64,000 nt of DNA. Source: Tautonia marina (GTDB lineage Bacteria; Planctomycetota; Planctomycetia; Isosphaerales; Isosphaeraceae). The position numbers were made by a program, and so were the translations under genes. The notes under the pieces are model-generated. The model had not been told where the DNA came from and ran no database searches. It was given only the letters and a program-made list of their open reading frames with translations. Every line of letters starts with the position of its first letter. Within the stretch, counting starts at the first letter, position 1. Of the stretch, positions 34,872-35,852 are shown piece by piece. The stretch lies in assembly GCF_009177065.1 (NCBI RefSeq), contig NZ_WEZF01000009.1:62001-126000 (forward strand), given 5' to 3'.

Positions 34872-35852
34872 ATGGCCGAGACACCCCCCTTTGGCGAGGA
34901 ACCGACCGGCGCTCCTCACGACCACGAGCACCCCTCCGCCGGTCATTCGGGGCACCCCAGCCCGCCGCCCGCTACCCCCGGCAAGGTGGCCCTGTGGCTC
35001 TTTCTCGCCACCGAGGTCATGTTCTTCACCGGCCTGATCGGCTCGTACGTGGTCCTCCGCGCGGGCAGCCCTCCCGCCTCGTACAGCAACCTGTTTGCCC
35101 CCGAAACCGACCTGACCAACCGGCAAGACGCCCAGGGAGTCGTCCTCGTCCAGGCCGGCCCCGACGAAGCCGCCGTCGTCGAGACCATCCAGAACGCCAC
35201 CGGCTCGCCGATCGAGGAGGTCGAGCACCTTGTCGAATCCGCCCACGACCTCGGGGCCGCCGTCGTCCTGGTCGATTCTCCCTACTCCCCGGCCGATGTC
35301 GGCGACCTTTACCGACGCCTCCAGGCCCTCGGGGCCGAGGTCCGCATCGACAACCTCGAATCCTACTCCTGGCCCGAGCCGTATCAGGTTCTGGTCAACC
35401 CGCTCAGCATCGACCTCACGGCAATCAATACGTTCATCCTCATCTGCTCCTCGGTCACGATGGTCCTGGCCCTCGCCGCCATCCAGCGTGGCGATAAAGT
35501 TCGCCTCTCCCTCTGGCTGTTGGCGACCATCCTGATCGGCTCAACCTTCCTGAGCATTCAGATTTACGAATATTACCAGTTGATGGTCGGCCACCAGTAT
35601 TCGGTCGGCGTCAGCGAGACCGGGCATTTCCGCCCCTCGGTCAGCCTTTTTGCATCTGCCTTCTTCACCATGACCGGCTTCCACGGAGCCCACGTCACCG
35701 GAGGCGTGATCGCCCTGACGATCATCTGGCTCCGCTCCCTCTTTGGCGGCTACACTCAGCAAAACCACGCGCCGGTCGAGCTGGCCGGGCTGTACTGGCA
35801 CTTCGTCGACCTCGTCTGGATCATCCTGTTCACGGTCGTTTACCTGATCTGA
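34872..35852 (+). CDS. coxC: Cytochrome c oxidase subunit III with an inserted bL12-C-terminal-domain-like module
   Basis: A 326-residue subunit III. A His-rich N-terminal tail (15-35) precedes the first helix (38-62, LWLFLATEVMFFTGLIGSYV). The remaining helices (about 183-326) include TGFHGAHVTGGVIALTIIWL and AGLYWHFVDLVWIILF, which are diagnostic of the family. In ordinary five-helix subunits III the loop after helix 1 is short. Here it holds about 110 residues, and residues 88-160 read like the C-terminal domain of ribosomal protein L7/L12: AVVETIQNATG, HLVESA and LQALGAEVRI at the expected spacing. With helix 1 in its usual orientation this domain would be periplasmic. The frame continues uninterrupted through the insertion, so this is not an assembly join. 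It lies 74 bases before the subunit IV gene. Confidence 0.93.
   Translation: MAETPPFGEEPTGAPHDHEHPSAGHSGHPSPPPATPGKVALWLFLATEVMFFTGLIGSYVVLRAGSPPASYSNLFAPETDLTNRQDAQGVVLVQAGPDEAAVVETIQNATGSPIEEVEHLVESAHDLGAAVVLVDSPYSPADVGDLYRRLQALGAEVRIDNLESYSWPEPYQVLVNPLSIDLTAINTFILICSSVTMVLALAAIQRGDKVRLSLWLLATILIGSTFLSIQIYEYYQLMVGHQYSVGVSETGHFRPSVSLFASAFFTMTGFHGAHVTGGVIALTIIWLRSLFGGYTQQNHAPVELAGLYWHFVDLVWIILFTVVYLI

Follow-up and report, generated by a model that had tools for sequence, protein, structure and literature searches.

The coxC gene at 34872..35852 (+) of the window, by which we mean the whole 64,000-nucleotide stretch of Tautonia marina DNA analysed here, encodes a cytochrome c oxidase subunit III of 326 aa that carries a homologue of the C-terminal domain (CTD) of ribosomal protein bL12 in the loop between its first two transmembrane helices. 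Profile searches, taken together with the predicted fold, establish the insert as a true homologue of the bL12 CTD. Its role is less certain, and we tentatively regard this bL12-CTD homologue in an A-type oxidase subunit III as a candidate periplasmic docking module. The domain is known and the enzyme is known, and it is the combination that is new; a search of the literature by titles and the beginnings of abstracts, with most subscription papers outside its reach, found no description of such an insertion.

The host protein has the features of its family. CoxC matches PF00510 (E=4.6e-21), contains the motifs LFLATEVMFF and YWHFVDLVW, and shares an oxidase operon with subunits I and II. The AlphaFold2 model, based on an alignment of 41 sequences, places helices at residues 36-61, 180-205, 209-240, 259-290 and 300-325, and its top Foldseek matches are COX3 and CyoC; the WHFVD.VW segment is invariant among 41 CoxC sequences. 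Thus, CoxC resembles subunit III and CyoC proteins in its five helices, its motifs and its operon, as expected from the initial annotation of an otherwise normal five-helix subunit III, and differs from them by a soluble domain of ~74 residues, on both sides of which the subunit III core is intact. All of the following features lie on the forward strand. Helix 1 (residues 36-61, 34977..35054) is followed by an N-terminal linker (residues 67-87, 35070..35132) that the alignments show to be partly common to relatives lacking the domain. The bL12-CTD-like domain itself (residues 88-161, 35133..35354) is delimited by PF00542, PDB profile matches, AlphaFold2, Foldseek and VIA-align; residues 88-160, to which it had first been assigned, do correspond to 35133..35351. 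A short C-terminal linker (residues 162-166, 35355..35369) leads up to a WPxPY motif, and the WPEPY...NPLSID motif with helix 2 occupies residues 167-205 (35370..35486), the PF00510 match starting at residue 167. We take the loop after helix 1 to be periplasmic, with helix 1 entering from the cytoplasm as in the CyoC/COX3 topology, and by this analogy the insert would lie on the periplasmic side of the oxidase.

AlphaFold2 predicts the element order β (88-94), α (99-110), α (114-127), β (130-136), α (143-152) and β (156-161) for the insert, with block pLDDT values of 80-95 and one block (131-140) at 70. When the insert is modelled alone the same order is obtained, with a shorter second strand. 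This is the β-α-α-β-α-β fold of bL12, which had been proposed from an alignment by eye, and among solved structures L7/L12 CTDs come closest to it. Foldseek returns 1ctf first (E 4.4e-4, TM 0.83 by target length), and VIA-align returns Mycobacterium tuberculosis L7/L12 at Z 10.7 and 1ctf at Z 9.8 (rmsd 1.8 over 68 residues). VIA-align also gives N-terminal parts of PBP3 at Z ~7, which we take to reflect a common arrangement. The fold is similar to that of the ClpS adaptor as well, and because ClpS reaches Z 9.5, near the best bL12 value, structure alone cannot separate the two families. Sequence does separate them: in a Pfam search with 28 inserts (E<=0.1), no ClpS match was among those listed for any of them, and we therefore reject a ClpS identity.

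As a single sequence the window insert is inconclusive, since the NCBIfam L12 model gives it only E=0.061, second to an unrelated model at 0.044. Scanned alone against Pfam, it ranks PF00542 first over positions 3-66 of 67 (E=8.4e-4), and the score of 20.1 bits is below the curated cut-off of 25.9 bits; inside the whole CoxC sequence the same match is only E=0.025, and a search of the organism's own genome with PF00542 at E<=0.001 recovers true bL12 only and not CoxC. The closest PDB sequence is 1ctf (E=0.0011). The alignment by eye to the E. coli L7/L12 CTD can be reproduced, with the first ~36 residues ungapped and ATG, LVESA and GAEV common to both sequences; a gap of 6 residues is needed between the ungapped stretch and GAEV.

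The inserts as a family lie far above background, which bears out the assignment to the bL12 CTD made in the initial annotation. Scanned singly, 20 of 28 inserts match PF00542 at E<=0.1, the best at 4.8e-12. A profile of 28 of the 30 inserts (alignment A1, from which the truncated insert of G017 and the split one of G019 were omitted), built without any bL12 sequence, matches E. coli L7/L12 (3j9y_7) over 64 residues without a gap (E=1.1e-12), and bL12 fills the top 16 of the 33 rows returned. Alignment A2, of 41 rows, omits G042 (which has a second insertion), G007 and G017 (contig ends) and G003. Against a bL12 profile, 25 of the 28 inserts outscore the best of 2000 shuffles (7.7 bits; 1777 of the 2000 got a score) and also the best reversed insert (6.6 bits), the window insert scoring 18.6; the inserts of L011, L028 and L024 stay within the range of the shuffles. 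Over the organism's own genome, the insert profile matches CoxC and bL12, plus one further sequence at E=0.57. It could be argued that the resemblance is due to chance or convergence, or that the domain belongs to ClpS, which has the same fold, given the single-sequence Pfam score under the cut-off, the poor NCBIfam value and ClpS chains that nearly equal bL12 in structural score. Set against the profile match to bL12 at E=1e-12, the 25 inserts that score above all shuffles and the lack of a listed ClpS match, this explanation is highly improbable, and on the profile searches and shuffles we reject chance resemblance.

The insert is nevertheless not a bL12 protein. It has homologous sequence across the whole bL12 CTD and the same predicted fold, but it is embedded in a membrane enzyme and flanked by oxidase helices rather than by the N-terminal dimerisation domain and hinge. 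The genome encodes its true bL12 elsewhere, on contig C15. The window insert shares 19/70 identities with this bL12 and 23/68 with that of E. coli, so that a recent donation by the organism's own bL12 is unsupported.

Comparison of the inserts with 20 bL12s from Isosphaeraceae indicates which parts of the domain have been retained. Positions are given in E. coli numbering, counted from a mature length that we take to be 120. Positions 56, 58, 68, 72, 83, 86, 106, 110 and 115 are hydrophobic in 28/28 inserts (A, G, P, C and aromatics being included as hydrophobic) and G114 is retained in 27/28, while the core is looser at P91 (16/28) and G97 (18/28). The basic face has fared differently. K65, K70 and K81 are lysine in 20/20 of the family's bL12s and in 0/28 inserts, and K84 is lysine in 20/20 bL12s and 3/28 inserts, being absent from the other 25. 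Some remnants of the old face are evident, namely R73 in 10/28, an acidic residue at E82 in 18/28 and T76 in 11/28. Much of the altered face is often acidic: over residues 64-85, the charge averages +3.0 in bL12 but -2.7 in the inserts. Few surface positions are common among the inserts, the commonest new residue being H92 (19/28). Judged at the level of sequence, these comparisons show that the core has been kept and most of the basic translation-factor face lost. In bL12, the four lysines are described as highly conserved and mutation of K65 or K70 as reducing elongation-factor binding (PMC10602876), and the CTD is described as the common site for translational GTPases (PMC10931766). With most of this face gone, the insert is therefore unlikely to act through the known bL12 contact or to recruit translation factors by that route. 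In eight close pairs among 13 sequences (three of the pairs share sequences), dN/dS is 0.18-0.53 in the insert and its linkers and 0.04-0.13 in the CoxC core. These estimates point to purifying but relaxed selection: the insert is constrained, yet it evolves faster than the core.

Surveying planctomycete CoxC sequences for the insertion, as the initial annotation had suggested, we found it in 30 of 45 Isosphaeraceae genomes, representing 13 of 21 genera (the order sample consists of this one family). Orthologues without the insert, in which the loop has 27-32 residues, are present in 14 of the 45 genomes and belong to the 8 other genera; no CoxC orthologue was found in G003. The two states never occur within one genus. 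The oxidase can thus dispense with the domain, which these 14 orthologues do not have. Thirty-three loci come from named genomes, and those of Singulisphaera acidiphila DSM 18658, Paludisphaera soli, Aquisphaera insulae and Tautonia sociabilis all carry the insert. In the class sample (347 genomes, 45 of them Isosphaeraceae; at most 14 candidates scored per genome), no match outside the family, among those listed down to ~E=4e-10, spans the whole insert profile; the matches listed there look like bL12 itself or other bL12-CTD proteins. At E<=1e-15, the phylum sample of 392 genomes (at most 13 candidates scored per genome; 370 genomes gave no row) yields matches in two genomes, both of them Isosphaeraceae. 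A diverged insert could escape either search. In 30 CoxC-like ORFs from other families of the class, read by eye, helix 2 follows helix 1 without such an insert. The insert is best explained as having originated within Isosphaeraceae, at a site where the CoxC-like proteins read from other Planctomycetia have a short loop. The number of gains and losses varies with the tree: there are 4 changes with 34 rows, 2 with 38 rows (only rows with >600 aligned residues) and 5 in a 32-row tree, where a single inserted clade has p-AU 0.048 and bootstrap leaves the question unsettled. L104 and L107 were omitted from the 32-row and 38-row trees.

Several CoxC proteins carry additional material. The 419-aa CoxC of T. 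sociabilis (L047 2552-3811, genome G042) has, besides the bL12-like domain, a further insertion after helix 3, hydrophobic and ~94 residues long, for which Pfam gives no family above the cut-off. Large insertions after helix 3 are also seen in CoxC of other Planctomycetia (L144 in G208 and others of L134-L150), the one in L144 having a weak PDZ_6 match under the cut-off (E=2.7e-4). In L050 and L033 (G038 and G039), the first two helices of the bL12-like domain are separated by an insertion of ~36 mostly charged residues.

CoxC is not the only such host, and on the evidence of sequence matches reuse of the bL12 CTD is recurrent in Planctomycetia. Nine class genomes, chosen for having more than one insert-profile match each, contain further bL12-CTD-like matches; signal peptides, lipoboxes and loops of these proteins were read by eye and not by a prediction program. 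The closest parallel to CoxC is an MFS transporter (L186, G206:C117, ORF from 1183, +) with a PF00542 match of 29.9 bits at residues 105-171, directly before the MFS match, in what seems to be the loop following helix 1. An FGE-sulfatase-like protein (L178, G194:C175, 1165-2265, -) has a putative signal peptide and an internal bL12 CTD (PF00542, 81 bits), a probable lipoprotein (L182, G197:C31) has one at its end (84 bits), and two large proteins (L180, G239:C251; L183, G099:C1) also end in a bL12 CTD. The CTD of L178 keeps the conserved lysines and looks close to the bL12 of its own genome (L181), and is perhaps a recent domain copy. These proteins resemble CoxC in having the same domain in a predicted exported or membrane context; the hosts differ, and the domains of L178 and L182 score far higher than that of the window CoxC (20 bits). 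PF00542 did not bear out a weak match seen in a TrkA protein (L184). Across 91 genomes of family f2, five full-length PF00542 places are not ordinary bL12 genes, the open frames having 1248, 585, 558, 505 and 176 residues. Many mostly short ORFs in f2 genomes (for example G084:C152:60588-60704) match only ~8-46 of PF00542, corresponding to the first two helices; a half-domain small-protein family is possible.

The operon offers a candidate partner for the insert. Its first gene (27901..29313, +) encodes a diheme c-type cytochrome (PF00034, two CxxCH) that is a probable lipoprotein, with a lipobox, LAGC, read from the sequence. It is followed on the same strand by coxB (29433..30644; PF02790 and PF00116), encoding a CuA subunit II without heme and with an N-terminal extension; coxA (30649..32556, start approximate; PF00115, E=4e-153), encoding subunit I; a ctaA-like heme A synthase gene (32483..33826, start approximate; PF02628); a ctaB-like gene of the UbiA family (33823..34785; PF01040); coxC; coxD for subunit IV (35927..36307, start approximate; PF03626) and a gene for a SCO1/SenC and DUF420 protein (36105..37556, true start further in; PF02630 and PF04238). 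The order cytc-coxB-coxA-ctaA-ctaB-coxC-coxD-sco is the same with or without the insert, where the contig reaches. In all 24 readable rows (the window and 23 loci), CoxB has the CuA motif CAELCG and no CxxCH. A CoxB without heme has to receive its electrons from a separate cytochrome, and the operon's own diheme lipobox cytochrome is the natural candidate.

A segment of this cytochrome varies with the state of CoxC. The stretch from heme 2 to WGDPLRP is short in the window (56 residues, 28876..29043, +). It is long (at least 75 residues) in 8 of 9 rows without the CoxC domain and in 1 of 23 with it, the comparison covering the 32 of 38 tree rows in which both genes are readable; the heme-2 distances of L089, L191 and L196, which the first motif missed, were read by hand or with another motif. 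There are two exceptions to the exchange, L192 having neither element and L089 both. Because the tree holds only 1-2 independent changes, the exchange is without statistical weight. In the uninserted relatives L106, L108-L111, L113 and L114, the second heme domain of the cytochrome has 30 to >200 extra residues, and several of these extended cytochromes contain a His-rich, GHGGGH-like run. We rejected the idea that the acidic insert binds a basic cytochrome through opposite charge: the window cytochrome is itself acidic, with a net charge of -32, so that simple attraction is unlikely. Its charge ranges widely across the other loci, where the lipobox cut is rough. The CoxB of the window (29433-30644) has an extension of ~160 residues before the usual helix; among CoxB matches at operon loci this is matched only in L103, also a Tautonia, and so it cannot explain the wider occurrence of the insert as its partner.

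For the function of the insert, we favor docking as the most likely role, with a neutral insertion as the strongest rival. As a periplasmic docking module, the insert may keep a partner close to the oxidase; the likeliest one is the operon's diheme lipoprotein cytochrome c, as the probable electron donor, and the alternative is an assembly factor or another periplasmic-side subunit. The reciprocal pattern of the CoxC domain and the extra cytochrome segment (8/9 versus 1/23) is in favor of docking. Against it stand the remnants of the old face, the acidity of the window cytochrome, the 14 orthologues without the domain, and the insert's fast evolution and scarcity of common surface positions, which would fit a contact that is weak or lineage-specific. 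A broader version, in which the bL12 CTD is a recurrent extracytoplasmic block in Planctomycetia that in the oxidase docks the diheme cytochrome and is exchanged for the cytochrome's own segment when absent, is doubtful as a whole. It is also conceivable, if somewhat unlikely, that the insert is simply tolerated and nearly neutral, a compact soluble domain in a surface loop that folds and does no harm. Its faster evolution relative to the core, the 14 orthologues that lack it, the unrelated inserts in another loop of other planctomycete CoxCs (such as the PDZ-like one in L144) and the presence of bL12 CTDs in unrelated proteins are all in keeping with neutrality. Its retention in 13 genera, the conservation of fold-determining positions and a dN/dS below 0.6 in all eight pairs are not.

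The remaining proposals concern other partners. It is distinctly improbable that the insert serves assembly, as an attachment point for factors that insert copper or heme, for example the operon's SCO1/DUF420 protein or CtaA/CtaB. As far as the contigs extend, genes for these proteins share the operon with coxC in either state, and H92 as the commonest new residue (19/28 inserts) might be read in the same sense; however, a CoxC that lacks the domain has these assembly genes beside it as well, and subunit III, to our knowledge, binds no metal. Contact with alternative complex III (ACIII) in a supercomplex is more improbable still. NrfD-type genes, which occur in ACIII but in other enzymes too, are found in 41 of 45 genomes, and in Flavobacterium johnsoniae the five-helix subunit III is described as mediating the ACIII contact (PMC8361435), so that this form of the subunit is a known contact surface. 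The one NrfD gene found in the present genome (contig C4, 258516-259487), however, is ~7 kb from the other COX3 paralogue (C4:251008-251442), which has no insert-profile match. ACIII is therefore probably linked to an oxidase other than the insert-bearing one, and this position weakens the case for ACIII as the docking partner.

Few parts of the cell are as conserved as ribosomal domains, and these have rarely been reported inside unrelated enzymes. Here, one has moved from the cytoplasmic ribosome to the presumed outer face of a respiratory oxidase, where it has retained its fold, lost most of its translation-factor surface and remained under selection throughout a bacterial family, while sister lineages have the same operon without the domain. 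The family thus provides a natural experiment on the role of subunit III loops and presents subunit III as a scaffold into which domains can be inserted. That the bL12 CTD turns up again in other proteins predicted to be exported or membrane-bound suggests a module that is easily reused.
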